NCBI GenBank assembly: GCA_021399445.1
Contig: JAJTUQ010000002.1
Location: forward strand, 7,440,001-7,504,000
Origin: Xylogone sp. PMI_703
Taxonomy: Eukaryota; Ascomycota; Leotiomycetes
DNA length: 64,000 nucleotides
Direction of reading: 5' to 3'
Of this stretch, positions 3,173 to 33,935 are shown one piece after another. How positions within the stretch are numbered: position 1 is the stretch's first letter; each line of letters opens with the position of its first letter. Under the pieces are notes generated by a model. That model was not told the origin of the DNA and did no database searches. It saw only the letters and a list, made by a program, of their open reading frames with translations. The position numbers and the translations under genes were made by a program.

Positions 3173-4656
3173 TCACTTCCGTAGCGGAACGCTTTGCGGG
3201 TTGTGGAAAACATCGTGAGGGTCAATCTTCCTCTTGATGCTCTCCAGCCGCGGCAGATTACTGCCCCAATACTGCTCTTGCGCATTCTTTAGTCGCGGGT
3301 CCACATATCCAGGATATGCAGGGAACGAGGCATTCGGCTGCGCGGAGGTAATAACGTTTTGCTGGCCGTCAATAAAATCGTACGTTGTGGAAGTAACGGT
3401 TCCGTTGGTCAACGCATAAAAGAGTATGAAGTACAGCGCATCACGGTGTGCGTACGCAGTTGCATTTGCAGGTACGTCGGCTATAGCGCCACCTAGGAGC
3501 TGGATCTCCATCAGCCACTGCACTGCACCTGATGGTGTGGTATCAGAGTATGTGAATAGTGCGTCCCATGATGAGGCCAGTATCAAGGATGATGGATCAA
3601 CGAATATGTTTTTGCCATAGAAATAAGCTGGGACCTCTGCGCTCGCTGTTTGCCTCGAGAATATATCCGACAAGGCCAGCCAATCATTAACGACTGTGAC
3701 ATTGGTGAGAGTAGGTGGCACCGTGAAGGCAGACTCGAAGTTGAGCGCGTTATATTGGTCCAATGTGCCGTAATATACTCCACCAATGAGGATAGTACCT
3801 GTCACAACATCCACGACGGGGAAGAACTCTCTTGGTAGGTTCGGGTTGGCGACGAATGTTTGCCAGTCCTGAAGAATCTGGGCGCGAGCAGTAGAGTCGT
3901 TGCTGACGAAGGTGTAGTCAAAATACACGGATTGAGTGGGTTCAGGCTCCGTCTTGAATGTAAACTCGGTGACGATTCCGAAGCTCCCTCCTGCACCTTT
4001 GATAGCAAAGAGCAAGTCTGGGTTCTCCGTAGCTGATGCGGTGACGATGCTGCCGTTTGCGAGAACGACTTCAGCGGCCTCAACGTGATCGACTGTTGTT
4101 CCGAACATGCGCGATGTTATGCCCACGCCCCCAATTGTAGCATGTCCACCAACTCCAACATCCGGACAAGCACCATGGGAAACGGCACGACCTCCGGCAT
4201 TGTGTAGCAGCGTCGTCACGTCCCCAAGGTTACTGCCGCTGCCGATGCGGGCCGTCTGAGTCTGGGGGTCGTAGCAAAAGCTTTTGAGGTTGGCTAGATT
4301 CACGACGACCTCCCCGTTGGCTCCACCCCATCCTTTTAGTTTCATAGGTCAGCTGTGTTCTTGCTTCTGGGCAAACAATCTTTCACATCAACAAATCTCG
4401 CCTTACCATAATTTCCGTAGCTGTGGCCTCCGCCCTTCGCCTGGACCTTGAGCCCACTTTGTGCTGCGCATTTCACGACGCCGGCGACCTCATCGGCTGA
4501 GCTGGGGTAGGTAACAGCGGCGGGTGCAATAGGTATGTTCAAGTTGAGGGGGGTCACGCTTTCATCGTAATCCGCCGAGCTTGGCAATACCAATGCTGAG
4601 TAGTTCCCCTTCAGAGCCGCCGCGAAGCAGGCGGCAGTTACAGGGCTTAGCTTCAT
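3173..4656 (-). CDS. FAD-linked oxidase, berberine-bridge-enzyme type
   Basis: Two exons, 4656..4407 and 4332..3173, joined across a 74-nt GTAAGG...AAAG intron; 469 residues. It belongs to the PP-loop FAD-linked oxidases (FAD_binding_4 plus BBE C-terminal domain) that use O2 to oxidise alcohols, sugars or carry out oxidative cyclisation. The flavin can be bicovalently attached in this family, and both anchor residues are present: His78 in GGGHSYG and Cys139 in HGACPDVGVGGH. The C-terminus FHNPQSV is also typical. Unlike many secreted members it has no clear hydrophobic signal peptide; the N-terminus MKLSPVTAACFAAAL is only weakly hydrophobic, so a cytosolic biosynthetic role is plausible. It is divergent from the HMG-CoA synthase gene over a 481-bp shared promoter. 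The substrate is unknown. Confidence 0.9.
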
Positions 4657-5137
4657 TTTTCTTATCCGTGTGTCCAAATGAGAGTGCACGGCTTGTCGAT
4701 TGATCAACGAATGGAAAGATAGAAGACGGATCCAGATGCTACTTGGATTGGGAAGGTAAGCAAGAAGCCACACTGAAAATTAAGAAACTTATAGCCTGGG
4801 GGCGGTGAACTTTCGCCAAATCCTAGCGACATGAGAAGGGATCAGCGATATGAGAAGGGCTGAAGGGGATACAGATGCGCTGACCAAATGTTCGCAGTTG
4901 TCCATTCTCCTCCGCCTCCGTAACTGCAGCCGGTTCGTCGGTCTTCGGGAACCGGGTGTGTTTCAGCCGCCGGAATTGTATGCTGTAGTATCATATCTCA
5001 TATCGGTAAAAGGCACAACCTGGCATTACTAGAGCCTGGGTACATATTTGCGACATTTTGATAATGGTTTGTACATACGGAGGAGCTTTTCAATAGTTTA
5101 TGCTAGAGTGGTGCTAAAACCGGCACAACCTCACGCC
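4657..5137. promoter_or_regulatory. Bidirectional promoter between FAD oxidase and HMG-CoA synthase
   Basis: 481 bp separate two divergent start codons. Inside lie a 19-bp tandem duplication (agcgacatgagaagggatc, then a near copy, 4825..4862), several CGG words near 4930..4975, and ATACGGAGGAGC at 5075..5086, whose reverse strand reads CTCCTCCGTAT and resembles the CTCC-G sites seen before other genes of the group. Shared control of the two genes is an inference. Confidence 0.45.
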
Positions 5138-6704
5138 ATGGCTGCGCGACCTCAGAACGTAGGCATTAAGGCCATTGAGATCTACTTCCCTAGTCAAGTA
5201 TGTCTTAGAATTAGAGTGCAACCAAATTTTGATCCAGGGCCATGCTGATCACTTCTCTGCGCAGTGTGTTGACCAGGCCGAGCTCGAGAAGTTCGATGGC
5301 GTTAGCCAGGGAAAATATACCATTGGTCTTGGCCAGACCAAGATGAGCTTCTGCGATGACAGAGAAGGTGAGCAAACGCTACAATTCCATGTCTTCGAGC
5401 ATCTCAAAGCTTACAAAGTTACAGATATCTACTCTTTCGCTCTCACCACCGTCTCTAACCTCCTGAGCAAGTACAATGTTGACACTAACTCCATTGGTCG
5501 TCTCGAAGTCGGTACCGAGACCATCCTTGACAAGTCCAAGTCCGTCAAGTCCGTCCTCATGCAATTGTTTGGTGAAAACACCTCCATTGAGGGTGTGGAT
5601 ACCATCAATGCCTGCTATGGTGGTACTAACGCTCTCTTTAACACCGTAAACTGGTTCGAGTCATCTGCTTGGGATGGAAGAGATGCCATTGTCGTCGCCG
5701 GAGACATTGCACTTTATGCTAAGGGCGCTGCCAGGCCCACAGGTGGAGCTGGTTGTGTTGCTATGTTGATCGGCCCAGACGCACCTCTTGTTGTGGAGCC
5801 TGGACTACGAGGTACCTACATGCGACACGCCTACGATTTCTACAAGCCGGATCTTACTAGCGAATACCCCATTGTTGATGGTCAGTTCTCCATGCAGTGC
5901 TACACTGAAGCTGTGGATGCTTGTTACCGCGCCTACAATGCTCGAGAGACCACATTGAAAAGTCTTACAAACGGAGTTAATGGCCACTCCAATGGTGTAA
6001 ATGGAGAAGAGGCTTCCCAGAAGACCCCTCTTGACCGATTCGACTATATGGTATTCCATGCTCCCACTTGCAAGCTCGTTGCCAAGTCCTATGGCCGCTT
6101 GCTCTACAATGATTACCTCGCCGATCCCACCGCACCAGCCTTTGCTACCGTTCCAGAAGAGCTCCGAGATATCGACTACCAGAAATCCCTGGCTGACAAG
6201 GCTGTGGAGAAGACTTTCATGGGTCTGACCAAGAAGCGCTTCAACGAGCGTGTGCAACCAAGCATCCAAGTGCCTACTTTATGTGGTAACATGTACTGTG
6301 GTAGCGTTTATGCTGGTCTTTCCAGCTTACTGTCTTTCGTCGACAGTGAGGCACTCCAGGGCAAGCGAATTGGTATTTTCAGCTACGGAAGCGGCTTGGC
6401 ATCAAGCATGTTCTCCTTGAAGGTCAAGGGCTCGACCCAGCCCCTGAAGGAAGTCTTGAACCTAGACAAGAGGCTCGCAGCTCGCAAGGTTGTTCCACCA
6501 CAGACATATGACGACGTAAGTGTGATTACTCCAGATTACTCATGCTTCCTGGCTAACAGCATATAGATGTGCGAATTACGAAAGAAGGCGCACTTGCAAA
6601 AGGGATACACTCCCTCTGGTAGTATCGAAGGCATCGTCAAGGGTACATACTACCTCACTGAAGTTGATGACATGTTCCGACGAAAATACGAAATCAAAGC
6701 ATAG
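5138..6704 (+). CDS. ERG13: Hydroxymethylglutaryl-CoA synthase
   Basis: Condenses acetyl-CoA with acetoacetyl-CoA to HMG-CoA, the step before HMG-CoA reductase in the mevalonate pathway. Four exons: 5138..5197, 5265..5367, 5425..6515 and 6567..6704. Spliced it gives 463 residues, the normal fungal length. The start was chosen because [20 protein letters not shown] is the conserved N-terminus. Catalytic residues are all visible: Glu86 ([10 protein letters not shown]), Cys118 (NACYGGT) and His266 (VFHAPTCKL). A short Asn/Gly-rich insert lies at residues 237-248 ([12 protein letters not shown]). The gene is intact. Its position within 30 kb of an HMG-CoA reductase and an aromatic prenyltransferase suggests a cluster copy that raises isoprenoid precursor supply. 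Whether it is the only synthase gene in the genome cannot be seen from here. Confidence 0.95.
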
Positions 6705-7670: not shown

Positions 7671-8227
7671 TTACACCTGCTCAAGCAGGAGAACCTGTAC
7701 TCCATCCGGATCCCTTACCACTCCAAACTGAACACCCCCATCTGTCGCAATCTTGGGAGTCCCACCAAGTCCTAAAGCTTCCAACCGTGCCAAAGTCGCG
7801 TTTACATCCACGAAGAAGGAAATCACGAAGAAACCAGTTTCCGGTTGCCCAACGGAAGCTGGGCGGCCTTTTTTAATACCCTCGAAATATGTAAGTTCTA
7901 GGACACCATTCTGCGTGGCTGGTAGAGAAGCGTTGCCAAGGTAAACTTCGCTCACGGTGTCGGTTGTAGCGCCAAAGAGGTACTTGTAGTTGGCGGTTTC
8001 GGTCACGTTTTCAAGGATGCTAAGTCCGATGCCGTCGACATAGAATTTGATGCTTAGGTCGAGATCGCCAGGGGTCAACACGGTATGAAAGAGTGTGGTC
8101 TAGTTTGTTATTAGTTTTGCCACTCGCGTTTTTAACATCGAATGTGGATATAACTAACCTGCGCGTTTCCGAGGCAAGCAATTATGCCAACGAAGAGCAA
8201 GATAAGCGCTGAGAAGTTTGGACCCAT
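7671..8227 (-). CDS. Secreted glyoxalase/bleomycin-resistance fold protein
   Basis: Two exons, 8227..8159 and 8099..7671, with a 59-nt intron (GTTAGT...CTAG, branch-like ACTAATA); 165 residues. Residues 1-23 (MGPNFSALILLFVGIIACLG plus NAQ) look like a cleavable signal peptide. The mature part is a single vicinal-oxygen-chelate module: TTLFHTVLTPGDLDLSIKFY, then VLELTYFEG, then a second beta-alpha unit ending in VRDPDGVQVLLLEQ. The His of LFHT and the Glu residues of LELT and LLLE are candidate metal ligands. Family members act as isomerases, dioxygenases or binding proteins; the reaction here cannot be assigned. A secreted or vacuolar-lumen form beside biosynthetic genes is unusual, and its role in the group is inferred only from position. 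Confidence 0.8.
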
Positions 8228-9702
8228 TTTTACAAATGTGTTGACTTTGAATTATGGCTATTCTCAATGCTGTAAACAGCTTTTTCTATGTACAATCTAA
8301 AACCTAACAACATCTCAACAGCATCTCATTATATAGATAATTTTACGTACATAGCTCTCAGCCTCAACACCGCAACTTGGGTTCATTTCGGCATAAAGCC
8401 ATTTCGGGTGGCGTTCAGATGTCGAAATGTGGCGTTCAAATTGTAAGAGCTATACCAGATGAACGGTGTAAGATGTAAGAAATTAAATTAGGTTGTCAAG
8501 TTCGTCGTATTTTAACGGCATCCTTCTTGACAATATACTAATTTGAGTTGTGGATCCATGTGTCCGACCACCTGCGTTACCGGCCAGTGAAATTTACCGC
8601 AAAATCTAGCAGATCAATCCAGCGAATCAGAAGGTGGAATTGCTGGATTTTGCGGTAAATTTCACTGGCCGGTAACGCAGGGCTGGAATTACGTCAATAC
8701 AGTAGGATTGATAATTTGGTATTGATAATTTGGTAAAAGTGCTTTCGGTAGACCGGTTGTTCAGGGGTTATTTACTATATCCGAGATTACATCCTATCGG
8801 ATTGAGGTGTGATTAGAGTTTGCCGAATGCAACTATCCGGCCCAATCTGATACTTGGTACAGCGCCAAATAACCCACCCATTGCAGTCTGTGCTCGTTAG
8901 TTGAATGTGATGGAGAACTGGGCGATTCGCCCAACAGAAATTGGGGAAGCAAAGCCACGATGATAAAATCCCGATGGTTCTTATCGGAGATATTCTTGAT
9001 GTCTGCCGAACAAGCCGCGTCCATACTGCCTGCCAATAGAAAGTCTAATAGAATTGCAAGTGAGGGGTTGAGGGGTTGAGGGGTTGTGCATCTTGACACC
9101 TACGATGATTTGCCGGGCATACTGGAACTACGATAACCAGGTATTATGTATGGACGAGAAAGATTCCTTGTAAAACACCATCGCCTATGATCATGGTATA
9201 TTGAGTACTAACAAGGGTGTTTTCTTTGTTCTTCTCTCGGGTCCGATACGGAATACGTGGACATACAGCTGTCTATGGTCGTCTGATTTGCTCGACTATC
9301 TCTTTTCGGGCATCCAACTTGCTCCGGAGTCAATAATTCAACCAATTGATTCACTAAGAACTCAACTGGCCTGATTTAAATCGAAAGTGGTTCCATACTA
9401 TGCTATCTCTTTGACTAAGCTCTTGATCGCCGTACAAGAGAATAGTAAACAGAGTAGTGTGATTTCGGTTGGGGAAAAAAAAATGTGTTTCGCATCCCGA
9501 GAACTTGGTGGGTCGATACCTGTAGAAGGTATCTACGGAGGATGTTCACTCCCTCCTCCGATGCGCTAGTGACATGGCATGAATCATGTCTCACCACAGC
9601 TCTGCTTTATAAAATCATCCTCATAACCAGGTAGTTCCAGAATATCACGCCTCGTTCCTGCTTCTCCGTGCATTTTACGAAACATCTTAGGATCAGCCAA
9701 TC
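8228..9702. other. Intergenic region before the FAD monooxygenase
   Basis: Holds the promoter of the glyoxalase-like gene, a hairpin element (8572..8680), a duplicated attgataatttggt (about 8707 and 8722), an 8-bp unit gaggggtt repeated three times (9062..9085), a perfect CTCCGGAG at 9322..9329, and a CTACGGAGGATG/CTCCTCCG pair at 9533..9560, about 145-170 bp before the monooxygenase ATG. No gene seen. Confidence 0.55.
8572..8680. repeat. Hairpin miniature inverted-repeat element
   Basis: Two 40-41 bp arms, starting ctgcgttaccggccagtgaa at 8572 and ending with its complement ttcactggccggtaacgcag at 8680, differ at one position and are separated by about 28 bp. The whole unit of 109 bp would fold into an almost perfect hairpin. 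There is no coding potential and no obvious target-site duplication. The near-perfect arms suggest a young insertion or a structure kept by selection. Confidence 0.8.
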
Positions 9703-12341
9703 ATGGAGAACCCCAAGGGCTTCCGGGTTGTTATTGTTGGGTCATCAGTTGCAGGCCTTACATTAGGTCATTGTTTGCACAAGGCTGGAATAGACTTTGT
9801 CATTCTTGAGAAGCACCACAGCATCGAGAAGGAAGTTGGCGCCACAATCGGCATTGGCGCAAATGGCGCTCTAATTCTGGACCAATTGGGTGTACAGGAG
9901 GCAGTCGAGGAAAACTCGTGCCGTAGAGAAGAAATTGAGTTTCGAATCGGACTCAAGGCAAAACTCCTTGGGCGTATGGATGATTACTTACGACTAGTTC
10001 AGAAACGGTAAGCAATAGAAAGCTGTAGCTTTTGATTCTTGTCAGTTACATTCTTCAATTGAATACTAAGTGGCCGTAGATCAGGCTATTCTCTATTTGC
10101 TACCACACGCCATGAGTTGATCACAGTACTTTTCACACGCTTCCCGCAGAGGGACAAGATTATGACTGACCACCGTGTGTCAAATATCGATCTTGATTCG
10201 CAGGGCGTCACGGTGCACTGCGATAACGGCGCCTCCTTCAAGGGAGATATTGTTGTCGGAGCAGATGGCGTCCATAGTACAATTCGCTCCGAAATGTGGA
10301 AACATGCTAGCAAACTTGCCCCAGATGCGTTTACTCCTAAAGATAAAGGTAATTGTTATTATAGTAACTTTAACACTTAATTGTGATGTGTACTTACGTC
10401 GATTTATAGTGATGACGGCGGAATATAGACTGATGTTTGGAATATCAAAGCCAATTCCAGGGCTTCCCCACGATCCAGACCAGTCTGTCGTAAACAAGAA
10501 CTTCTGTTTCCTCATTGTTCCATGCTCACGCGGGAGATTTGGTTGGTTCATATTTGAGAAGCTAGACAAGAAGTATTATACGCCAAACATTCCACGATAT
10601 ACCGAAAAGGACGCGGAAATTATGGCCGCGAAGTACATGGACTTCTCAATTACGGAGCGCATATTATTCCGAGATGTGTACAACCATCGTATTGCATCTG
10701 GTCTAGCTCCTCAAGAAGAGTATCTAGCTGATAGATGGACGTGGAATCGAATTGTCTGCATAGGAGATGCAATCCGTAAGGTACGTAATATACACGAGTT
10801 CCTAATAACCTACAGGCAACTTGCTTATACACTATCTTAGACCGCCCCAACTTCTGGTCAAAGCGGGAATAATGCTATGGAAGACTGTGCTATATTGACA
10901 AACGCTCTTCACGGAATGCTCGAAAAGAATCCGAGACCTGATACAGCTACACTTGAACGTGGTTTCCTGGAATTCCAGAAAATCCGGCACCCACGCGCTA
11001 ACGTTTTCCACGAGGAATCCCAATTCATCCTTCGCAATGAATGTCTGAATACAGTAGTGGATGAGCTCATAGCCAAATATCTCATCCCCAACTTCCCCGA
11101 CATTCTGGTAAATCACTTGGCTGACACAGCCATTGGGTCCTCCCGCTTGAACTTCCTCCCTCTAGGAGGACTGGTAAAGAGAGGGAGCATGTACCGACCT
11201 AAAGCAGAACCTATGATTCGTCGAGCCGCGAGGGCAGCCCCAATACTGCTTGTATTGGTCTGGTTCGTTTTCCTCAGTGGGCAGGTATTCAACTTAATTT
11301 CAGACAAGCGTAGTGCCCAAAGCTTCGAAGGAGACGTCGCAGCAGGTTCGTGGGGCTATAAACTCCCATCTAACTCGCTTGTGAATTGGCTACCACTGCC
11401 TCAGCTCCTTTCTACTGAGCTAAAAACAGTTGTTGAGTTCTATATGAGTATGCTTACTAACGAACTTGCGCGTGCGCGGGCCCTTGCTTTCTGGTTCGAT
11501 TTCAACGCGATATTGGGCATCTGGATGGTTGAAAGCCACAGGAGAGGAAATATGTTCTCTTTGGCACAAATGTAAGTTTCCTACCTAAAGTTCTTAATCT
11601 GTGATCTAACAATCTAGTTTCTCGCTATTCGTCTGGATCGTAAAATTCCGAGGCAGTGGTTCTAGTGTGCCGCTTTACTGCTTTTTCCACTATCTGCTGA
11701 ACCCTATCACGAACTACAGAGCTCTGGATTTACGACATGTTCAGACACATAACGCCCAAGCACTTCTGCCAGCAATTCTTCTTGGCTTTACATTGCCGAC
11801 CGCTTACCTGTTGCTCTACGCACCTAGCACCAGTCAATCATACTTTGTGAACTTCATTACAGCATGGCAGTTCTTCCCTGCGCTAGTGCCTGCCCTCCAT
11901 ATGCTAATTTCATCTGTTATGCCTCGATCTAAGGTACACTTTGTGGACAGGCCCCTCTCGGATTTAGGATACCTCCGAGTGTTTTACGTCACTTGTGCAT
12001 TGACTTCTACAGCTGCCTACTGGTATACGGCTCTGAAATTCTACCCTGATTCTGTGTACTATGGAATGTCGTTTTTGAGTGGCCTTAAGAACTTTGCTAC
12101 AATGGGTGATTTATGGGCCACTTGGTTACAGGTCGATATGCTGGCAGAGCGACTTCCCATGATCTATCTCGTTGCACTCAATTTCAGAGATCTAAAGGCA
12201 GTCGGGAGGTTGACTGTAGGTTGGGTCCCACTTGTATTGGGATTTACTGCCATCGCAGCTCTTTTTAGTCCGGGAACTGCGTTGATTGCCGCCTGGGCAT
12301 ATAGGGAAGAGTTGTTGGCATCATGGCACGTCGCAGTGTAG
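9703..12341 (+). CDS. PaxM-like FAD monooxygenase fused to a polytopic membrane domain
   Basis: Five exons: 9703..10007, 10080..10348, 10410..10780, 10841..11571 and 11618..12341. Spliced it gives 799 residues. The N-terminal ~430 residues are a class A flavin monooxygenase: Rossmann GSSVAG near residue 13, GATIGIGANGA, the DG motif VVGADGVHSTIR and the GD motif CIGDAIRKTAPTSGQSGNNA. This layout is that of the PaxM/epoxidase group of fungal indole-terpene and meroterpenoid pathways. The C-terminal ~350 residues hold about seven or eight hydrophobic segments (for example APILLVLVWFVFLSG, LLPAILLGFTLPTAYLLLY, WQFFPALVPALHMLI), so the enzyme is membrane-bound. The membrane module may be a terpene-cyclase-like unit or only an anchor; I cannot tell which. 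All exon joins keep frame. Likely substrate: a prenyl chain or prenylated aromatic, by inference from its neighbours. Confidence 0.87.
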
Positions 12342-13973: not shown

Positions 13974-14892
13974 ATGCTTTCCCGAGATCCCGACGCTAGA
14001 ATTAGCCCAGCTACAGATTCTTCGTTATGGGCTGAAAGAATTGTACTGGTCGTAGGTGCTGCCACAGGTACAGGTCAAGCAGTCGCCACGGCCTTCGCTG
14101 CAGCTGGGGCACGCCGCATCGCTCTTGTGGACAGTGGTGATATGTCTATCACTCAAGAACGAGCGATTCAAGCTGCAGCTGCAAAGCATTTACCACCTCC
14201 CGATCTGCTCATCCTCCACCTGCAACCCGAAGACTCCGCAGGTTTGGTGGAAAGAGTTGAGGAGGTCAGTCGCAAATGGGGACATGTTGACATCATTGTC
14301 AATCACGTAGATTCAACACATTCAACATCGAACGAGGGCAAACGGGGCAAGTATTTTGAATCTGCCTTCCAGAATGTCTATGCCATTGTTCATGCATTCC
14401 TCCCTCTGCTGCTTGCCGGGTCCGAGAAGACATTCATCAACATAATTCCTGCCAGCTCTCCTGTTTTAAAGCCAGGACAAGGCGCTAATATGATTGCTGA
14501 GATGGCCAACAAGCAACTGACCGACAGCTTGATGATCGATTATGGACACGAGGGCCTATTGGCGTATTCCATACACTCACTTAAAACCCCCACGAATCAA
14601 GGTACGTGCTTTTTCACAAGGACCTCAAAAATCCAAGAGAGACATTAACATCGAATTCATAGATCCCCTGAACCAATTAAAACTAGACGGCAGTGCCATT
14701 ATTTATTTGACTACTAAAAGGCGCGAATGGCTAGCTAGTCGACATATCTCCAGCACGCAGAATGCGTATGAACTCGTAGCTCAAAAGGAAGTGATTGTTC
14801 GAAATGATCTTCTAAGGTACAAGAATACGCTCTCATTCGACTTTCCACCTGAACGGGTATCGAAAGGTCGGGTTCCCAGAAGCAGTTGGTAA
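13974..14892 (+). CDS. SDR-like protein lacking the catalytic Tyr (probable pseudoenzyme)
   Basis: Two exons, 13974..14601 and 14663..14892 (61-nt intron, GTACGT...ATAG); 285 residues, or 294 if an upstream ATG at 13947 is used. The fold of a short-chain dehydrogenase is clear: nucleotide-binding VVGAATGTGQAVATAFAAAG, HVDIIVNHVDS in place of the NNAG strand, and a C-terminal YLTTKRREWLASRHIS block found in a fungal SDR subfamily. The active site is degraded. Where the family has S...YxxxK, this protein reads IIPASSP...GANMIAEMANKQ, so the Tyr is absent, and the usual HPG turn is HSLKTP. The frame is otherwise open, so it is either a recent pseudogene or a non-catalytic protein. An additional 5' exon is possible because related proteins have a longer N-terminus. 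Confidence 0.68.
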
Positions 14893-21008: not shown

Positions 21009-22829
21009 ATGGCCGCCCCCGCCCCCGTAGGTACTGGTCAGGACGTCGCTGAATTCAAAAGCACTCCGTCGTCCAATGTGGACCTAGAGAAGGGTAGTGA
21101 TGCGTCTGCTCTGGACGACAAAGAGATAGAAAGCCAAACCACCCCGGTACCAGCCGTTGTAGAGCAGCCACCGCCCTCAGATCCCAATCTCGTTGAGTGG
21201 GATGGCCCCGATGACCCAGGAAACCCTTTGAATTGGTCTTATGGAAAGAGGTGGCTCATGACCATCATCCTGGCCCTTAACACTTGGATGGTGACATTTG
21301 CGTCATCTGTTACCAGCAGTGCAATTGGTCCTCTGTCCGAGGAATATCACGTCGCACCTGTAGTGGCGACACTGGCAACAAGTTTATTCATCGTGGGATG
21401 GGGACTTGGGCCACTCGTAAGTAGTTTTCCGCGTTTTGTTTTCCCCGTTTTCCCACTTGCTCTGTAGTATAAATCCACCATGGTTTAACCAATATATGTG
21501 TCCAATGCTACCGACTAAGGACTTCACTGACGGCATTAACAGATATGGGGTCCTGGCTCAGAGGCCTTTGGCCGGAAGCGTCCACTCTATCTTGGGTACG
21601 CGATTTTTACGATAATGCAGATCCCCGTCGCGGTAGCACAGAACCTACACACCATCCTAATCTGCCGATTCGTCGCAGGCGTTTTTGGTTCCGCTCCACT
21701 GGCCGTTGTGGGAGGTATCTATGTGGATATCTGGGCCCCCGTTGATCGCGGCATAGCTCTCAGCATAGTCTCCACGACGACTTTCACTGGGCCCATCGCT
21801 GCCCCAATCATAGGGTAAATAACCCCATCAAGTAATGGCTTTTTTCCTATTCGTTCACTAACCCTTTTGCGCAGGAGTTTCATCACCCAAAGCCACCTTG
21901 GTTGGCGCTGGACTGCCTGGATCACCCTGATTGGGGGCGCATTTTTCGGAGTACTTGGGCTCTTCTTCGTCCCGGAGTCGTCTCATGCTCGCCTCCTGCA
22001 GATACGGGCTAAGAAGCTGCGCCACGAGACCAAGAACTGGGCATTACACTCCAAAGCCGATGAGCAGCCCCTGAACTACAACACAGTGATGACTGTATAC
22101 CTAACGAGACCATTTAAGATGCTTTTCTCGGAGCCGATTCTACTCCTCATTACTATCTACACCTCCTACATCTACGGCATCTTATACCTTTTCTTTGAGG
22201 CCTACCCAGTCTCTTTCCAGGAAGAGCGGCATTGGAGTGGAGGTGTCTCATCCCTCCCTCTCTTGTCACTCCTGATCGGAGTCTTAATTGCCACGTTTTC
22301 TTTCAACTACCATGGCCGGACACGCTACGCGCGGCTGTTGAAGGAACAAGGACGGGTTGCCCCTGAGGAGAGGCTGGTCCCAATGATGTTCGGCTCTGTC
22401 CTCCTGCCCATTGGCCTGTTCTGGTTCGGCTGGACTAGCAGTGCGCACATCTCTTGGGTCCCGCAAGTCCTCTCCGGCATTTTCATTGGATGTGGTCTCT
22501 TCCTGATCTTCATTCCAGGATTATCTTACCAGGTCGATGTGTATCTATGGTTTGCAAATTCAGCCCTCTCAGCAAATACGTTTGTGCGATCGATGCTGGG
22601 TGGCGCGTTCCCTCTATTCGCCACGGCCATGTATCACCAGCTGGGCGTCGACGTGAGCATACACTTCTAATCCTTCTCCTGGCTGCATCTGCTAACAATC
22701 TTATGTATATAGTGGGCCTCCTCCCTCCTTGGTTTCCTTTCTATAGCGATGATGCCAGCACCATTCTTGTTTTTTATATATGGTGCGAGAATCCGGGCAA
22801 TGAGCAAATTCGCTCCCAAACTGCCATGA
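21009..22829 (+). CDS. MFS transporter, DHA1 (12-TM) type
   Basis: Four exons: 21009..21416, 21543..21814, 21875..22652 and 22713..22829, giving 524 residues. The N-terminus (about 80 residues) is hydrophilic and ends with the family hallmark VEWDGPDDPGNPLNW, found in fungal polyamine/multidrug DHA1 carriers. The first transmembrane block (SSVTSSAIGPLSEEYHV), SEAFGRKRPLYLG (motif A) and the GWRWTAWITLI segment are present, as is the PESSHARLL loop. The first intron is long for this window (126 nt). The last exon ends FIYGARIRAMSKFAPKLP. Likely a plasma-membrane proton antiporter. With the DHA14 gene 2.7 kb upstream it gives the cluster two export routes; substrates are unknown. Confidence 0.9.
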
Positions 22830-25894: not shown

Positions 25895-26565
25895 GTTGTG
25901 TGATTTTTTGTGTTGGAGTTGTACGTAAGGGTTAGGAAAATAAGATGCTGACTTGATGGCTTGATGACTTGAGTTATGTCCTTCAAAACGTGGCGGAGAT
26001 GACGACTTTTAAGGGCTGTTGAGCACCACGAGAAATACCTTTGCGGATGGCTCTTCCTCCGCCATGACAAATCAAGGAGTGCAATCTGTAACCTCTTTGG
26101 CCTCGCAGACGTATGTGATTGACCGGCACAATTCGTGATTGCATATTGTCTTGTGCTGCATATTACCTTGAATAGGTGCAAATATTAGAAATCATCGAAC
26201 CGCCGGAAACCAACAGAACCAAAAGTACCAGAACTGATGTATCTGCTATGGCGCCGCTCCTTTGTTGCTTAGAAATATCACATGCAGGTTGATGCAGGAT
26301 TGTCGCCGCTCCGAATCGCTTAACTAATGGGCGCACTAAAACCAGGGCGGGGTTTGTCGTCCGCCCCGGAGCGATTGACTAATGCCCCATTCGGATGCCC
26401 CTCTAAAGCTACCCCTCCTGGTGCCCCTCTTAAGCTTAACCATAGCTGTAATACTGTAATGCACATTGTGGTCCATTTATATACACCAGACGAGGCGCAT
26501 AATTCTTGTGCTTGAACACTCTCTGACCTCTCTGACCTCTTGTTACACTTACTCTCAAATTAATT
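25895..26565. promoter_or_regulatory. Bidirectional promoter between two SDR genes, with a direct repeat
   Basis: 671 bp between divergent starts. Two related segments of about 32 bp, 26301..26332 and 26355..26388, both begin TGTCG, carry a CTCCGA or CCGGAG word and contain a GACTAATG or AACTAATG word. They look like paired regulator sites. A triplicated gcccctct-like word follows at 26387..26433. Confidence 0.45.
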
Positions 26566-27399
26566 ATGGCGTCTCCAGTTATCCTCATCCTCGGTGCAGG
26601 ACCAAATATCGGCCAGTCGGTCGGTAAGCTCTTTGCCTCAAAGGGCTACAAGGTTGCCCTCGCTTCGCGATCAGTGAAGGAGGCAGACAGCACGGCCGAC
26701 CAACTGAACATCCCAAGTGACTTTTCCAAGAACGATGATGTTGTCAACGCATTTCAAAAGGTTAACAAGACATTCGGTGCTGCCCCAAGTGTAGTCGTTT
26801 ACAATGGTAAGTCCTGATACTCGCCGTACCTAAAGATACTTCTGAAGAATTCCTGCTGATAATTCGCAGTCAGCGCCTCGACCTTCACCCCACCAAAGGA
26901 GCCATTCGCCCTTTCGCTGGCCGATCTCAACAAAGACATCAACATCAACATCACTAGTGCTTTCGTTGCTGCGCAACAAGCTGTCTCTGGCTGGGCCAAC
27001 CTCCCTGCTTCTGCTGCCAAGACATTCATCTACACTGGAAACATCCTGAACGTTGAGATCATCCCGGCATTTATCGACCAAGGTATCGGAAAGTCCGCCG
27101 GCGCACATTTGATCTGGGCTGCCTCAGCTGCATACAAAGAGAAAGGATTCAAGTAAGCTAGTTATTTATTAATTTCCAACTTTAATTTGCTAGCGAGAAG
27201 ACTAGACTAAACTACTTCCAGGTTCTATTACGCCGATGAACGCAAGGCGGACGGCTCCGCCAAATACAGGGTCAGCGGGCCGGCACATGCGCAACACTTC
27301 TGGGAGCTCGCGGAGGGGAAGACACAGGGCCCGTGGTTGCAGACGTTCGTCGAGGGCCAGGGATACAAGGACTTCGGCCCATATAAGCTAAATCTGTAG
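26566..27399 (+). CDS. Atypical short-chain dehydrogenase
   Basis: Three exons, 26566..26806, 26870..27152 and 27222..27399, giving 233 residues; all joins keep frame. The N-terminus ILILGAGPNIGQSVGKLFA is a Rossmann nucleotide-binding loop and SRSVKEAD follows the second strand. The central part reads NVSASTFTPPKEPF, then IYTGNILN and GIGKSAGAHLIWAAS. The Lys of GIGKSAG corresponds to the catalytic Lys, but no Tyr stands four residues before it, so this is the atypical SDR group common in fungi that keeps the fold and may use another residue. A decayed relative lies at 23797..24003. It shares a divergent promoter with the classical SDR at 25157..25894. Function is not assignable beyond NAD(P)-dependent oxidoreductase fold. 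Confidence 0.85.
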
Positions 27400-28373
27400 A
27401 TAATTGAAATTACTTCCGTAGAAAAATGACACGGTTTAAGTAATTTGCACTCTAAGGGTCGATTTTCATTTTACTTTTGTGGTTGATTTGTTTTACTCTC
27501 TGTAAATTTCTACACGCTTACGAGGAAGCCTTTTGTTTGTATAATGACGGGGAGCTTACTAGGACAAACAAGTTGCGAGTGAGCTTGGTGAGGAATAATG
27601 AAGCTAGTTAATTTCGAAGATGGCCATTGCTCTGCAACCCACAGTAGAGCATACAGTAATGCGCACTAGAACTGGTTTCCAATGTCAAGCCATGCGTATT
27701 TTTGAGCTAAACTTATCTTTACAGGTGGTTTTGTTTTCCTCGACAGATTTTAGTCAATCTTCATGCAGAGGTACAGCAGTTAGGTGCCGTATTTGCGCAG
27801 CACTAGCAGGGGAGAGTCTTACTTACATTTATTAAGTAGTAACCTTTCAATTCTTTCATCATATTCATCTTATGTTGGCCTATCCGATATGGTGGCTTCT
27901 ACTACCAGATCTAGATAGGGTGGTTGTCGCGGAGGATAAGTCCCCTGCGTGTGCTGTGCATGTACTTAGCCCCGCTCGTGCCGCTTACCTCCGCCCATCA
28001 CCTGGGAGTTTGCGGCCAGGCAAGTCAGCCAGCCGCCAATTAACCTCTACTCCGGAGTACCGATATACAGACGGCAAACAACCACTACTCGGGCTCCGGA
28101 ATATACAGACAAAAAAACAATCACTGCTCCGGAGTATACAGTCAAAAAATTAAGGCATGATGGTCATTCGGTGTCATTTTGATAACGGCTAGCTTTTGTG
28201 GCTAGCACTAAAACTTCCGCCAGCCTCACGAAAAGCATTTTCAAGAATACAGATATAAACGGTGTCTGGCATTACAGCTCTCTGTACTAAGTAAAACCCT
28301 ACAGGCTTTTCTCTAGATCATACGGCCTAACCAGAGTTTCCTACCACGTCATCGCATCATTCTTACGGCCAAC
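27400..28373. other. Intergenic region before the prenyltransferase gene
   Basis: No gene recognised; open frames at 27620..28153 lack domains. The last 330 bp hold a triple CTCCGGA array (28048..28141) and the putative promoter of the prenyltransferase gene. Confidence 0.5.
28048..28141. promoter_or_regulatory. Three-copy CTCCGGA(G)TATACAG array
   Basis: Three imperfect repeats of about 35-45 bp: TACTCCGGAGTACCGATATAC (its first 12 bases form a perfect palindrome at 28048..28059), CTCCGGAATATACAGAC (28094) and CTCCGGAGTATACAG (28127). They lie 230-330 bp before the prenyltransferase start. Related words occur at 1713, 9322, 16234 and 20492, before other genes of the group. The palindrome of CGG half-sites suits a Zn2Cys6 dimer. 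Confidence 0.45.
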
Positions 28374-29270
28374 ATGGGTTCAGCAGCCGCAGATTTCAAG
28401 TTCGACCACGCGCAGTTCCTCGAAGATGTCAAGAGGACAGCAGCTGGAATTGGAGCCCCTTTCAACGAGGAGGTAACCCGTAAAGTGCTCGACGTCTACA
28501 AAGAGCAATTCGCAGAGGGAGGCATTGTCCTGCGAACATCCAACCGAGGCGCCCAACTAGACTACCGCTTTTTCATGCGTCGGAAGACTCCTGTCATGGA
28601 ATTGGCGTTGAAGGAAGGATTTATCAAGCAAGACGATGAATTGACTGAGTTGATTGCCCAATGGAGTGCTCTTTACAACGGTCGACCTGAAGCATCGGGT
28701 GACTTTGACTCTGTTACTGGCTTGGCCAAGATCTGGTTGTACTTTGGAGCTATCCGTCCAGTGGATGAAATCCTCCAGCCATTTGTGCCCGAAGGAATCC
28801 GTGCCCATTTGCCTTCGTTTAAAAGCCTAGGACTTACGCACATCCAGCACGTTGCCGTTGACTACAACCGACGCAGTCTCAATCTTTATTTCAACTTCTT
28901 CGGCGAAACTACACCAAAGCGAGTACACGAGCTGGTGAAGCTTGTGCAAGATGAGGTTCCTAGCGACGCTATCACCAAGCAGATCTGCGATTTCCTTACG
29001 CACGAAAATTACCCCTTCTCTGTCACACTGAGATGGGATGGACACATTGAAAGAGTGTGCTTCTACTGCCTGCGAGACCTTCCACCAGATGCCGACAAGG
29101 TCGATCCAGCTTTAACGAAATTCTGGGACGTGGCTCCTTGTTACGACGTGAGCGATTTCAAGACCGTGGGATGGTCGTTCGGTGGTAAATATTACTTGAA
29201 ATCAGAGCGAGGATACTATGGAAACATTGCGTCTTATGGAGAATATTGGGGAGTGTTCCCGGAGGAATAG
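28374..29270 (+). CDS. ABBA-type aromatic prenyltransferase (NphB/Orf2 family)
   Basis: Single exon, 298 residues, no signal peptide or membrane segment. The sequence has the order and length of the soluble bacterial NphB/CloQ enzymes and of the small fungal group (Ptf proteins of Botrytis, Sclerotinia and Aspergillus terreus) shown to dimethylallylate 2,7-dihydroxynaphthalene. Recognisable pieces include TSNRGAQLDYRFF, the VAVDYNRRSLNLYFNFFG strand and DFKTVGWSFGGKYYLKSE near the end. Unlike DMATS indole prenyltransferases it is short, and unlike UbiA enzymes it is not membrane-bound. It should transfer a prenyl group (DMAPP or GPP) to an aromatic acceptor in the cytosol. Lying 1.2 kb from HMG-CoA reductase and 22 kb from HMG-CoA synthase, it is the best candidate for the core enzyme of the group. 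The acceptor is unknown; no PKS is in view. Confidence 0.85.
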   Translation: MGSAAADFKFDHAQFLEDVKRTAAGIGAPFNEEVTRKVLDVYKEQFAEGGIVLRTSNRGAQLDYRFFMRRKTPVMELALKEGFIKQDDELTELIAQWSALYNGRPEASGDFDSVTGLAKIWLYFGAIRPVDEILQPFVPEGIRAHLPSFKSLGLTHIQHVAVDYNRRSLNLYFNFFGETTPKRVHELVKLVQDEVPSDAITKQICDFLTHENYPFSVTLRWDGHIERVCFYCLRDLPPDADKVDPALTKFWDVAPCYDVSDFKTVGWSFGGKYYLKSERGYYGNIASYGEYWGVFPEE

Positions 29271-30483
29271 GCATAAAAGTCTATATATGTTGCTGTATGT
29301 CGTTAGAACGTTAGTTTATTAGAACCTGGCGTAATTGAAAGTACTATCAAGTAGATGTTTTTTTTTATCATGACCCCGCTAGTAGCCTTAGGTGTTAATG
29401 CCTAGAACTAAAAGCTAATTAACTGTTTTAAGATTTACTCATTTAGACTATGTAACGTCTATCACGCCTCAGAAACCTAAATAAGCTATTACATTCCGAC
29501 GAGGTTATACCACATTTTAATTGTATGAATATATAATTTCTTGAGTTTATGTATCGCTATCCCCTCCATAATACTCGTCACTCGTCAGAACATATAAGAT
29601 ATTATAAGTAGCCAGGCAATTGGGAATTCCCTTTTGTTCTGACGTCGCTGATCCATAGAACCCATCTGGTCTGACGTTCCCATCTGCTCAAACCCCAGTA
29701 TACGAGGTTAAAAATAATCAAAATTTCCCAATTGAGCTTATCAGGTCCCTGCGGTCCCTGTCCAATCTTACGCAAGAGCCTTGTTGACATTGCAATGTTC
29801 TCCAGGTTTGACAGGTATTATGGCGGAGATAGTACTAATCTGACACTATACGACCCCGGTAGCTGAACCACCACCGGATCGGAAGACCGACGAACCCCTG
29901 CCTACAGCTTTCGACCGCAGCAGCCGCGGCAGTAACGGACGATGATGCAGATGAGCCCTGTAGCGGGGCTTTCTGAGGTCCGAGTAACCGGGGCGTCTAT
30001 CAGGTACCCCGTACGCTTAAAAGTCACCATTAAACTTGGGCGTGGCACGGGTACCATTGAGCACCTCGATCCCAAGTGCTGGTGTTCGAGGCGGCGTATC
30101 GTGGGCATGGCTATTGAAGTCCTAGGACATAACGGCAAACGAAGCCATTGTGAACAAAAGAACTAACCGCATTGGTGAAAGTCTAATGCGAACAATTCGG
30201 CCTTGACTGATCTGACAAAGAGCCCTTTCTATATTGTAGTGGTTGCCTGCCTCAGCTGGGGTGAGAGCATATCTTCAATAAGAACTAAGGACAGCACATA
30301 AAGGCAAGTTTTAGTGCCACGAGCAAAATATCATAGGTATGTTAATGCTCCGTCAGTCCCTCTATATATCTCATTACTGAGACAACTAGTTTGCACGGCT
30401 GTTGTCATATACCCGGATTTGCACCAAACTCTGTCGCCCAAATCAGATATAGTGGCCCAGGCCACTCTATTTCCACGACCATA
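29271..30483. other. Intergenic region before HMG-CoA reductase
   Basis: AT-rich 3' flank of the prenyltransferase gene, then a GC-richer block (29860..30160) with overlapping small open frames on both strands but no domain. GCTCCGTCAGT at 30348 lies 136 bp before the reductase start. No gene seen. Confidence 0.5.
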
Positions 30484-33400
30484 ATGTCCTCTCTAATACC
30501 TTCCCACTTTCGTAGTGAGCAGCCTTCCACACCGATATCGTCTCCGCCTTGGATAAATAGGAAGATTACATCGCTTCTCCAAGTCTTTTCTCGCATCACA
30601 TCTTCTCATCCGATCCATACCGTCGTCATTGTTGCTCTGCTCGCCAGTTCCAGTTACATTGGTCTACTAGAAGACAGCTTTTTCGGCGAGACAAGAAGCC
30701 TTGGGAAAGCCGACTGGTCATCGTTGGTGGAGGGAAGTAAAAGGCTTAGAGCAGGCCCTGAAACCGCCTGGGAATGGCAAACCTACGATTCTGAGGGGCC
30801 CACTCCCGAGAATGTCGATCACCTTGCTCTTCTAACCCTCGTATTCCCCGGCTCAAAGTCCGATGATATTTGCCCGGCTCCTCCAGTGCTAAAGGTAGAT
30901 CCTTTCCATGCAAATATTTCTGTTACATCTTTACCATCAACTTCAAACTCCTTCGCATCTTACTCCCAGGAGACGACTTTGACTTTCTCGGTCCCATATG
31001 CTCAGGCTCCCAATTTTCTATCTATTGCCCAGGAGATACCCGACAATGAGTTCGGCGAGAAGACAACTGGGAACAAGCATGGTAGGGAAGAGAAGATGTG
31101 GATTATGAGGTCAGTTAGGGCCCAGACTCGAACCAGTCTTGTCAAATGGGCACAAAATGCTTGGGTTGAGTTTCTCGAACTTGTCAGAAATGCTGAGACA
31201 ACCGATATCATCACCATGATCGTGGGATACATTTCGATGCATTTGACCTTTGTCTCCCTCTTTCTTTCTATGCGCCGCATGGGTTCCAACTTCTGGCTGG
31301 CAGGAAGCGTAATGCTCTCATCTTTCTTCGCATTCCTTTTTGGCTTACTCGCTACATCCACGTTCGGTGTCCCGCTGACGATGGTCCTCCTATCAGAAGG
31401 TCTGCCATTTCTGGTTGTGATTGTTGGTTTCGAGAAGAATATCGTGCTTACACGCGCCGTTCTCTCTCATGCCGTTGAGCACCGAAAGTCTTCGGATACG
31501 GACACCGGCAAGCCATTGGGAAAAGGCGGCAAGGCATCGAACCACATTCAGTCCGCAATACAACTGGCTATTAGTGAGAAAGGATTCGATATCGTTAGGG
31601 ATTATGCTGTGGATATTTGTATCCTAGCCATTGGGGCAGCATCTGGCATTCAGGGCGGTCTTCAGCAATTCTGCTTTTTCGCGGCCTGGATTTTATTCTT
31701 TGATTGCATCTTGTTGTTTTCTTTCTATACCGCCATTCTGTACATCAAGTTAGAAATAAGCAGGATAAGGCGTCACGTCGAAACGCGCAAAGCTCTGGAG
31801 GATGACGGTGTCAGTCACAGGGTGGCCGAAAACGTTGCTCGGAGTAATGACTGGCCTCAAGATAATGACAAAGATCAGCCAGGCACTACTATCTTTGGAC
31901 GGCAGATCAAAAGCACCCACGTCTCCAAGTTTAAGATAGTAATGGTGGTAGGCTTCTTTTTGATTAACGCCTTTAACTTTTACGCCGTCCCATTCCGGAG
32001 TGCAAGGTCCTCGGCCGACCCATTTAAAGTTGCTTCTAATGGCCTAGACACCATTCTTGACATCGCCAGGATGAATAGGCAGGAGACTGTTGTTACTGTC
32101 CTGGCTCCAATCAGATATGAGCTAGAATTTCCTTCCATCCATTACGACTTGCTTGGAAAGTCTGCCACCGGTAACGAAGGCGTGTATGCCGATTTACGAG
32201 GCTATGGAGTTGGTGGCCGGGTGGTAGGCAGCGTACTCAAGAGTTTAGAGGGCCAAATATTGTCGAAATGTATTGTTGTAGCTCTTGCTCTTAGTGTTGC
32301 ACTAAATGGATATCTCTTCAGCACAGCCACAGCCGGAATCAAGGACCCTAACGGTCCTGAACACCCGATTGATCCTGAGGAACTGGCTCAGGCGCAAGCG
32401 TTCAACGACATCGGATCCTCCAAGCTCCCATTGGGAGGTTACATTGGACCGCCAGCGGTACTTACTCCCGCTTTGAGTGATGATGAGGAAGTTGTAGAGA
32501 CGAGTGATTCTCCGCTGGATGCTGCTGAGCCACCCGCGCCTCTACGAAGCCGAAAGGAAATGGAGAAAATGCTGCAGGAAAAACGTGCTCATGAGCTCAA
32601 TGACGAAGAGGTCATCGAGCTATCTATGAATGGAAAAATCCCTAGTTACGCCCTCGAGAAGACACTCAAAGATTTCACCCGTGCAGTTAAGATTCGTCGA
32701 GCCATCATCGCTCGAACCAAGGCAACAGCGGATTTGACTAGTCTTCTTCAATATTCTAAGCTTCCCTACAAAAACTACAATTGGGCACAGGTCTTCGGTG
32801 CCTGTTGCGAGAACGTTGTAGGCTACATGCCAGTACCTGTTGGCCTCGCCGGCCCACTTGTTATTGATGGACGGAGCTATTTTATCCCTATGGCAACTAC
32901 TGAGGGTGTGTTAGTAGCCAGTACAAGCCGAGGATGTAAAGCAATCAATTCCGGAGGAGGTGCAGTGACGGTGTTAACAGCTGATGGAATGACGCGAGGG
33001 CCATGTGTCAGTTTCGAGAACCTTGAGCGAGCTGGTGCTGCAAAGATATGGCTTGACTCTGAGAAGGGCCAAACAGTCATGAAGAAGGCTTTTAACTCCA
33101 CGAGCCGATTTGCTCGGCTCCAGTCTCTGAAGACGGTATTAGCTGGCACTAACTTATTCCTCCGATTTAAGACCACAACCGGTGATGCTATGGGTATGAA
33201 CATGATCTCCAAGGGAGTAGAACATGCCCTGAGCGTCATGATGGATGAGGGCTTTGAAGACATGAATCTCGTGTCAATCAGCGGTAACTACTGCACTGAC
33301 AAGAAAGCAGCAGCTATAAACTGGATCGATGGACGTGGCAAAAGCGTCGTTGCGGAAGCCATAATACCCGCTGATGCTGTTAGATCCATTCTGAAGACTG

Positions 33401-33935
33401 ACGTTGATACAATGGTTGAACTTAACGTATCCAAAAACCTTATTGGCTCAGCGATGGCAGGCGCAATTGGCGGTTTCAACGCACATGCAGCCAATATTGT
33501 TGCTGCTCTCTTCATAGCTACTGGCCAGGATCCTGCGCAGGTTGTCGAAAGTGCGAATTGTATTACTATTATGAGAAAGTAAGTTTACTCTTTTAAGTGA
33601 TTTAAGAGAAATGCATGGACTAACTGCGTATCAGTCTTAATGGCGCTCTGCAGATCTCTGTCTCAATGCCTTCCCTAGAAGTAGGTACGCTCGGTGGTGG
33701 CACCATTCTAGAACCACAAAGCGCCATGCTTGATATGCTTGGCGTTCGTGGTCCTCATCCTACAAGCCCTGGTGAGAATGCTCGCCGTCTGGCCCGTATC
33801 GTGGCTGCGGCAACACTGGCAGGAGAGTTGTCACTTTGCAGTGCATTGGCGGCGGGTCATCTTGTGAAGGCACACATGCAGCACAACCGCTCCGATGCAT
33901 CTACTAGAGTTAATACCCCAGCTCCTACTCGTTAA
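30484..33935 (+). CDS. HMG1: 3-hydroxy-3-methylglutaryl-CoA reductase
   Basis: Reduces HMG-CoA to mevalonate with two NADPH, the rate-limiting mevalonate step; ER membrane. Two exons, 30484..33578 and 33635..33935; 1131 residues. I chose the ATG at 30484 ([20 protein letters not shown]) because it matches the fungal N-terminus better than the in-frame ATG at 30391. The N-terminal half has a first anchor ([18 protein letters not shown]), a large lumenal loop and a sterol-sensing-type set of helices. A linker rich in Pro/Glu/Asp precedes the catalytic domain (from about residue 720). Catalytic residues are complete: Glu807 ([10 protein letters not shown]), Lys940 ([11 protein letters not shown]), Asp1016 (ATGQDPAQ) and His1112 (KAHMQHNRS). 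The gene looks fully functional. Being near HMG-CoA synthase and a prenyltransferase argues for a cluster copy that drives prenyl supply; an inhibitor-resistance role is an alternative. Confidence 0.96.

Follow-up and report, generated by a model that had tools for sequence, protein, structure and literature searches.

A Xylogone locus carrying HMG-CoA synthase, HMG-CoA reductase and a CloQ-type prenyltransferase as a candidate cluster for a prenylated aromatic

Among the closest described systems are the hybrid-isoprenoid clusters of Streptomyces, in which an ABBA prenyltransferase (CloQ/NphB-type) stands beside dedicated mevalonate genes. For bacteria that also have the non-mevalonate route, the passages of PMC4650096 concerned with the mevalonate set place it always in the flank of a hybrid-isoprenoid cluster; they count it complete in 13 of 120 Streptomyces genomes and ABBA prenyltransferases in 35, most strains with such a prenyltransferase being without it, so that a private mevalonate supply is not required for these enzymes. 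Among fungi, the ent-pimaradiene cluster of Aspergillus nidulans (AN1592-AN1599) resembles our locus in having a second HMG-CoA reductase (HMGR), an SDR and a Zn2Cys6 regulator, and its HMGR is co-induced and was proposed as a precursor supplier. Unlike our locus, it yields a diterpene by way of a GGPP synthase and a diterpene synthase, and the sections of PMC3323652 describing it make no mention of HMG-CoA synthase (HMGS) and have no ABBA prenyltransferase among the genes listed. An HMGS gene does lie inside the AK/ACT toxin clusters, where the relevant parts of the published accounts propose a role in polyketide branching, while for 1233A they name HMGS as the target of the product.

The locus reported here lies on contig C12 of Xylogone sp. 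PMI_703, a mycoparasite (Leotiomycetes), in a stretch of 64,000 nucleotides which we call the window (Table 1). Like the Streptomyces clusters, it sets an ABBA prenyltransferase (PTase) beside mevalonate genes. However, while those clusters are described, in the parts of the source treating them, as having six mevalonate genes or, in many PTase clusters, none, the window has just two, those for the initial steps, which are of fungal type and come without a core synthase, and HMGS keeps company with HMGR and the PTase, with no PKS. We found no report of a fungal cluster joining these three genes in open-licence papers.

Table 1. Genes and promoter words of the locus, in window coordinates
Feature	Position	Strand	Domains and remarks
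Zn(2)Cys(6) transcription factor	-345..1599	-	left edge, model extends outside the window (to about -345); Zn_clus 24.1 bits, cut-off 21
Berberine-bridge-type FAD-linked oxidase, 469 aa	3173..4656	-	FAD_binding_4 + BBE
HMG-CoA synthase (HMGS), 463 aa, 4 exons	5138..6704	+	HMG_CoA_synt_N/C
Glyoxalase/VOC-fold protein	7671..8386	-	PF00903
FAD monooxygenase, 763 aa	9703..12341	+	PF01494 at residues 8-307
SDR-like protein (first SDR), possibly shortened	13974..14648	+	PF00106
MFS transporter 1, 557 aa	16494..18284	+	MFS_1, TRI12
MFS transporter 2	about 21009..22670	+	MFS_1; gene-finder exons before 20988 doubtful
SDR2, 245 aa	25157..25894	-	short-chain dehydrogenase/reductase
GCACTAAAAC	26333..26342	+	shared SDR2/SDR3 promoter
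SDR3, SDR-like, 233 aa	26566..27399	+	PF00106
GCACTAAAAC	28205..28214	+	starts 169 bp upstream of PTase ATG
CloQ-type aromatic prenyltransferase (PTase), 298 aa	28374..29270	+	PF11468
GCACTAAAAC	30308..30317	-	167-176 bp upstream of HMGR ATG
HMG-CoA reductase (HMGR), 1131 aa, two-exon model	30484..33935	+	membrane/sterol-sensing + catalytic domains
Second regulator candidate	44555..46783		Fungal_trans domain

HMGS, HMGR and the PTase are all intact within 29 kb, with the PTase adjoining HMGR. This confirms the observation of a previous sequence-only reading, which had described the three as intact within 28 kb, and their domains exceed the Pfam cut-offs (HMG_CoA_synt_N/C for HMGS; HPIH, sterol-sensing and HMG-CoA_red for HMGR; PTase_Orf2 for the PTase). 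Every neighbour which it named (FAD oxidase, FAD monooxygenase, SDR, glyoxalase-fold protein and two MFS genes) is present with an open reading frame, and SDR3 can be added to its list. The zinc-cluster regulator which it placed next to these genes is probably the Fungal_trans candidate, which lies about 10.6 kb past HMGR; the Zn2Cys6 gene at the left edge was not in its list. About 350 residues at the C-terminus of the FAD monooxygenase are partly hydrophobic and have no Pfam match, and a genome search with this part returned only itself, with no paralogue. A Pyr4-like cyclase was considered here and gained no support, the segment having neither Pfam match nor paralogue and only three hydrophobic peaks over the threshold applied, the first at residues 414-432.

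By sequence and predicted structure, the PTase is a member of the CloQ/NphB (PTase_Orf2) aromatic prenyltransferases with a PT-barrel fold: it matches PF11468 with 222.3 bits (cut-off 22), and its model (pLDDT 91.5) superposes on CloQ of clorobiocin biosynthesis (2XLY), its best solved relative at 36-37% identity, with a TM score of 0.92. The donor diphosphate-binding residues of CloQ and its catalytic glutamate are kept (R66, K120, Y174, Y233, K279, E281), as is W122, while K54 is conservatively replaced by R. By contrast, the two arginines with which CloQ binds the carboxylate of 4-hydroxyphenylpyruvate (4-HPP), Arg160 and Arg176, are replaced by Q160 and N176. The 12 rows P0001-P0012 have Q160 without exception and none has Arg176; another PTase of the genome, on C25, has R160 but F176. 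Three JGI relatives bear the name 4-hydroxyphenylpyruvate 3-dimethylallyltransferase, yet the window PTase lacks the arginines which that name would lead one to expect. Residues 160 and 176 thus disfavour 4-HPP as acceptor and, since both arginines are missing, the acceptor is probably another phenol. The fungal enzymes PtfAt, PtfBf and PtfSc belong, in the portions of the literature describing them, to the same family as CloQ and the window PTase. PtfAt, which we liken to the window enzyme by family membership only, is reportedly active on 2,7-dihydroxynaphthalene. The closest named PTase among the matches listed is from Bisporella (65%), a fungus which, among the best 120 listed, is named in a single row for HMGS and in none for HMGR, indicating that the association of the three genes is not general.

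A whole-genome copy count found four HMGS and four HMGR loci; those of the window are not the only copies, and a housekeeping-only reading of them is therefore ruled out. The window HMGS, identical to a deposited Xylogone sp. PMI_703 protein (row P0018), scores 689.7 bits against the eukaryotic equivalog TIGR01833 (cut-off 286.2) and aligns to the human cytoplasmic enzyme, including the catalytic NACYGG motif. In the HMGS tree its duplication predates the split between Xylogone and Scytalidium lignicola (support 100/99 and 99/87), which on phylogenetic grounds makes it a lineage-specific paralogue duplicated within the Xylogone/Scytalidium lineage. A dN/dS of 0.05 against the copy at 3.78 Mb on C20 indicates that the duplicate is retained under purifying selection, and it looks constrained. 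Scytalidium lignicola is named once among the listed matches of HMGS, HMGR and the PTase, as the HMGS partner of the C20 copy.

The window HMGR has the domain make-up and motifs of a eukaryotic (class I) enzyme, its HPIH, SSD and HMG-CoA_red domains comprising a membrane/sterol-sensing part and an NADPH catalytic domain. It reaches 456 bits for TIGR00533 (cut-off 441.8) from the first exon only, and 540.5 for TIGR00920, under that model's cut-off of 778.35. Its catalytic TTEG, DKK and GQD motifs align with those of human HMGR, and in the aligned catalytic part an alanine replaces a proline after DKK. In the HMGR tree, where the only Leotiomycete beside it is the genome's own other long copy (on C19), the window copy clusters with Sordariomycete enzymes (support 95/95) on a long branch (0.73). 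The AU test rejects placing it as sister to the C19 copy or as an ancient paralogue branching outside the Sordariomycetes sampled (p-AU 0.0037), while a clade of Sordariales and Chaetosphaeriales excluding the window copy is compatible with the data (p-AU 0.19), leaving the donor order unfixed. Because it groups with Sordariomycetes and not with the genome's own long copy, the window HMGR was probably acquired horizontally from another class of fungi. It departs from 12 of 304 columns invariant in the other rows, a number equalled by the C19 copy (the median over all rows is 1), and appears constrained.

Searches for ketosynthases, NRPS condensation domains and type III PKSs turned up no PKS or NRPS hidden close by. 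Scoring best candidates only, they place the last ketosynthase match on C12 at 7,106,286, 334 kb before the window, and the nearest condensation domain 471 kb downstream of it; the only type III PKS match is at 4.06 Mb on C12. Within these searches the claim of a cluster without a core synthase holds, and the PTase would itself be the core enzyme. Likewise, no later mevalonate gene or prenyl diphosphate synthase matched near the window, and the five GHMP kinase matches fall only on C22, C1 and C20; a six-gene mevalonate set beside the PTase was not found. When four HMGS, four HMGR and three PTase loci are placed at random in 50.1 Mb, the probability of finding both an HMGS and an HMGR within 28.8 kb of at least one PTase is 6.8e-5.

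A promoter word may tie together part of the locus. The 10-base word GCACTAAAAC (58 occurrences in the 50.1 Mb genome; reversed control 124) is found three times in 4 kb, before SDR2/SDR3, the PTase and HMGR, with a scan chance of 6e-4 that, the word being chosen post hoc, applies to it alone. Three random promoters have some 10-mer in common in 77 of 20,000 draws, and adjacent promoter triples in 2 of 53. The word is absent before HMGS, even with one mismatch allowed. Another 10-mer, ACCGGCACAA, is common to the FAD-oxidase/HMGS and SDR2/SDR3 promoters, which counts for little since two promoters are expected to share a 10-mer by chance. Enrichments of CGG-triplet motifs were weak, counted divergent promoters twice and were set aside.

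With moderate confidence, we read the locus as a secondary-metabolite cluster for a prenylated aromatic, with an extra mevalonate supply, DMAPP as donor and an acceptor made elsewhere. Its core would be the PTase and the adjacent HMGR. By analogy with CloQ, the PTase would take DMAPP directly, so that no prenyl diphosphate synthase would be needed; the extra HMGS and HMGR would raise flux at the first two committed steps of the mevalonate route, with DMAPP completed by the kinases, decarboxylase and isomerase of housekeeping metabolism. The acceptor may be a phenol without the carboxylate gripped by CloQ; a hydroxynaphthalene made at a polyketide locus elsewhere is one candidate. Oxidation or cyclisation of the product could then fall to the SDRs and the two FAD enzymes (monooxygenase and oxidase), its export to the MFS pumps, and control of the gene set to a Zn2Cys6 regulator. 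A lineage duplicate of HMGS and a probably foreign HMGR, neither being the sole copy, fit a dedicated precursor supply. The sequence-only reading, which had arrived at such a pathway, is partly supported: the further HMGS and HMGR copies elsewhere in the genome contradict its main ground for refutation, and no core synthase was found nearby, while HMGS, without the shared promoter word, would be the less certain member of the regulon.

That missing word, the 21.7 kb between HMGS and the PTase and the ordinary, home-lineage ancestry of HMGS would suit chance neighbours, the PTase and HMGR (with SDRs) being a small set and the left-hand HMGS and oxidases part of something else or dispersed duplicates. 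We consider this unlikely, as chance would bring all three so close with a probability of about 7e-5 and the HMGS duplicate has been retained under purifying selection; the ACCGGCACAA link to the left-hand genes adds little weight. Quite unlikely, too, is self-resistance, with the extra HMGS and/or HMGR as spare targets against a mevalonate-pathway inhibitor made by the cluster: statins and 1233A usually come from a ketosynthase and none matched within 334 kb, a single inhibitor would not call for duplicates of two consecutive enzymes, and the aligned catalytic part retains the motifs of human HMGR, with one proline-to-alanine change after DKK. Precedent does exist: according to a review (PMC12653290), Fusarium sp. 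RK97-94 has a 1233A cluster that makes an HMGS inhibitor and includes a self-resistance gene. Resistance-gene-guided mining is an established approach, and conserved motifs are retained in both window copies. It is very improbable that mevalonate or HMG-CoA serves as a building block (e.g., as a mevalonyl group or a branched C5/C6 acyl group) and not as a source of DMAPP. In the accounts of the fungal AK/ACT clusters noted above, HMGS is proposed to work alongside a PKS and an enoyl-CoA hydratase. In the gene models from the left regulator to HMGR, however, neither of these was recognised, nor was an acyltransferase or a CoA ligase, and a PTase is present instead.

If the prenylated-aromatic reading is true, the locus is a fungal cluster in which a CloQ-type PTase is joined by the two early mevalonate enzymes. 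It would then be convergent with the bacterial hybrid-isoprenoid clusters, and would be a case of a primary-metabolism enzyme that passed horizontally from one fungal class to another and now serves a metabolite pathway. More tentatively, the fungus may have built this Streptomyces-like arrangement independently from three sources, namely a PTase family shared with bacteria, a Sordariomycete HMGR and a home-made HMGS duplicate, with the acceptor phenol coming from a distant locus. The role of fungal CloQ-type PTases would become testable, because the locus names a precursor supply and the residues argue against CloQ's acceptor. Core-enzyme searches easily overlook clusters that have neither PKS nor NRPS. 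The genome has three PTase loci, and in favour of the prenylated-aromatic reading the PTase on C24 likewise sits with a prenyl-supply gene of its own, and with a PKS.

The genes for HMG-CoA synthase (HMGS), HMG-CoA reductase (HMGR) and a CloQ-type (PTase_Orf2, ABBA) aromatic prenyltransferase (PTase) lie in a 50.1-Mb genome of 25 contigs, in a window that ends 0.71 Mb before the end of contig C12. A taxonomy look-up lists Xylogone under Leotiomycetes as incertae sedis, and passages of a survey term PMI_703 a mycoparasite and put it in the top ten fungal genomes by number of prokaryote-derived transferred genes (PMC11708051). Genes were modelled with a small finder for which 89 long ORFs served as training set, and domains were assigned by Pfam scans; together the two recovered the set named by the sequence-only reading, i.e., HMGS, HMGR and PTase with an FAD oxidase, an FAD monooxygenase, SDR, a glyoxalase-fold protein and two MFS transporters. 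The second HMGS intron, called coding by the gene finder, was placed by hand; the result agrees with the deposited Xylogone sp. PMI_703 protein, to which the window HMGS is identical.

Features of the window, in order from left to right (window coordinates; gene models, Pfam), and of the other PTase loci
Feature	Position	Strand	Remarks
Zn2Cys6 regulator	-345..1599	-	leftmost gene
Berberine-bridge-type oxidase			
HMGS	5138-6704	+	
Glyoxalase-fold protein			
FAD monooxygenase	9703-12341		763 aa; long C-terminal part, its extra ~350 residues partly hydrophobic, without Pfam match or paralogue in the genome
SDR-like protein			
Two MFS transporters			
SDR2	25157-25894	-	
SDR3	26566-27399	+	
PTase	28374-29270	+	
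HMGR	30484-33935	+	
Protein without Pfam match	35437-36717		immediately right of HMGR; intronless, 426 aa, four hydrophobic peaks
PQQ-repeat beta-propeller protein	38951-41707		C-terminal part cysteine-rich, repeated (by eye)
Fungal_trans regulator			
HET/ankyrin gene			
Second PTase	C24:296 kb		loci L038/L040 (C24:290-308 kb)
Polyprenyl synthase	C24, ~1 kb downstream of second PTase		on the strand opposite to the PTase
PKS	C24, from ~299.5 kb		reducing-looking by eye
Third PTase	C25:552 kb		MFS and hydrolase genes by eye, 10 kb read

Family searches of the whole genome revealed further copies of both mevalonate genes, with four HMGS loci (eight matches), four HMGR loci (six matches, two loci being split over two exons each) and three PTase_Orf2 loci. 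Under random placement of 4, 4 and 3 loci, the chance that at least one PTase has both an HMGR and an HMGS no more than 28.8 kb away is 6.8e-5. None of the five GHMP kinase matches in the genome, and none of the 13 polyprenyl synthase matches, is near the window. The proposal that the cluster lacks a core synthase was borne out by searches scoring best candidates only: C12 has no ketosynthase match beyond 7,106,286, the closest NRPS condensation match is 471 kb downstream of the window, and the sole type III PKS match is at C12 4.06 Mb.

The most likely mechanism is one in which a regulator would turn on the gene set and the extra HMGS and HMGR would yield more mevalonate, to be converted to the prenyl donor DMAPP by housekeeping enzymes; the PTase would then couple DMAPP to a phenol made elsewhere, oxidases and reductases would tailor the prenylated product, and the transporters would carry it out. 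The individual parts have precedents. Passages of the respective papers describe a co-induced HMGR, proposed to supply precursor, in the Aspergillus nidulans pimaradiene cluster (PMC3323652), mevalonate genes that flank some Streptomyces PTase clusters and are absent from many (PMC4650096), and HMGS in fungal clusters. In the searches made of open-licence papers we found no published report of HMGS, HMGR and an ABBA PTase in one fungal cluster.

The PTase search gave 17 proteins. Besides the window PTase, these are one from Bisporella sp. PMI_857 (65%), ten further relatives, three of which bear the JGI name 4-hydroxyphenylpyruvate 3-dimethylallyltransferase, four CloQ-type proteins at 36-37%, and one at 26%. 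The best solved relative is CloQ, the clorobiocin PTase (9e-60 vs 9e-7 for NphB), on which the predicted model (pLDDT 91.5) superposes with a TM of 0.92. According to passages of PMC5371340, CloQ uses Lys54, Arg66, Lys120, Lys279, Tyr174 and Tyr233 as donor residues and Glu281 as base, while Arg160 and Arg176 salt-bridge the carboxylate of its acceptor, 4-hydroxyphenylpyruvate (4-HPP). The window PTase retains the donor set (with Lys54 changed to Arg) and Glu281, and since Gln160 and Asn176 replace the two arginines, 4-HPP is unlikely to be its acceptor. Gln160 occurs in 12/12 rows of the moderately supported window group (82/95), Glu281 in 11/12, and Arg160 in 4/4 CloQ-type rows. A hydroxynaphthalene is suggested as a candidate acceptor by analogy with PtfAt-type enzymes, work on which reportedly points in that direction.

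The cluster promoters were compared for enriched 10-mers, with divergent promoters counted twice. One of the enriched words, GCACTAAAAC, is found in the shared SDR2/SDR3 promoter, 169 bp upstream of PTase and 167-176 bp upstream of HMGR, and these are the only three copies within 4 kb of one another in the genome, which holds 58 (vs 124 of the reversed control). Three of 58 random sites would fall inside 3,985 bp with p = 6e-4, a value to be read knowing that the word was chosen post hoc; some 10-mer was common to three random promoters in 77 of 20,000 draws and to two of 53 adjacent triples. Because GCACTAAAAC is absent (at up to one mismatch) before HMGS and across the left half, the motif supports a putative SDR2/3-PTase-HMGR core more than the full 31-kb cluster.

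The two mevalonate genes appear to differ in origin. Among 120 listed HMGR matches, many without a species label, the best labelled one is Canariomyces notabilis (72%), a member of Sordariales by taxonomy look-up; the labelled matches are all from what we take to be Sordariomycetes. In a 53-row tree (51 of the 119 other listed matches, the window copy and a long copy on C19), the window HMGR fell inside a 25-row set with 19 Sordariales and five unlabelled rows (95/95; 95 in another tree). The C19 copy, an open frame of 1082 aa (read in part), is 66% identical to it over 901 aligned columns; a sister relationship between the two was rejected (cost 42 log units, p-AU 0.0037). In a second tree of 40 full-length rows, leaving out the C19 copy, the window HMGR grouped with Sordariales, Chaetosphaeriales and Phyllachorales (98/96), and an alternative Sordariales plus Chaetosphaeriales clade excluding it was not rejected (p-AU 0.19). 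Its branch is long, and the sole Leotiomycete beside it in the trees is the genome's own C19 copy. The best reading is that the window HMGR was probably acquired from a Sordariomycete, the trees leaving the donor order unfixed. Of 304 alignment columns that show no variation among the other rows, it departs from 12, and the C19 copy likewise from 12 (row median 1). Aligned to the human enzyme, it retains the catalytic motifs, with one Pro-to-Ala change after DKK.

The HMGS tree had 38 rows, 36 of them from the 120 listed matches and two for divergent copies of the same genome. In it the window copy, the C20:3.78 Mb copy and the protein of Scytalidium lignicola make up a single clade (100/99). 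Within it Scytalidium pairs with the C20 copy (99/87), so that the window HMGS stems from a duplication predating that split; the C20 copy is likely the housekeeping one. All three introns match in position between the two Xylogone genes, and the 463 codons compared give a nearly saturated dS of 1.64 and dN/dS 0.05. Among the matches listed, S. lignicola has one HMGS row and Bisporella one PTase and one HMGS row; no row labelled S. lignicola appears in the PTase set of 17 or the HMGR list of 120, both of which include unlabelled rows. The trio thus looks restricted to the Xylogone lineage, with room for error from unlabelled rows and from matches as listed.

The polyprenyl synthase beside the C24 PTase gives PMI_703 a second CloQ-type PTase with a private prenyl supply, here a chain-building enzyme, whereas the window PTase is accompanied by mevalonate entry. 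Together with the PKS, this set (C24:290-308 kb) is a candidate separate hybrid cluster. To its left lies a transposase-like ORF (by eye). Two HMGR-like loci, L006 (C12:2.14 Mb) and L007 (C19:5.01 Mb), apparently encode the catalytic domain only, at 32-34% identity to the window HMGR and under the NCBIfam cut-off. A divergent fourth HMGS gene (L013/L041, C20:432-442 kb) lies near an enoyl-CoA-hydratase-like gene, the latter below NCBIfam cut-offs, with an acyl-CoA-dehydrogenase-like ORF (by eye) and a ketosynthase match at C20:441.7 kb in the same region; the set resembles the HMGS/hydratase/PKS sets of Alternaria clusters in published excerpts.
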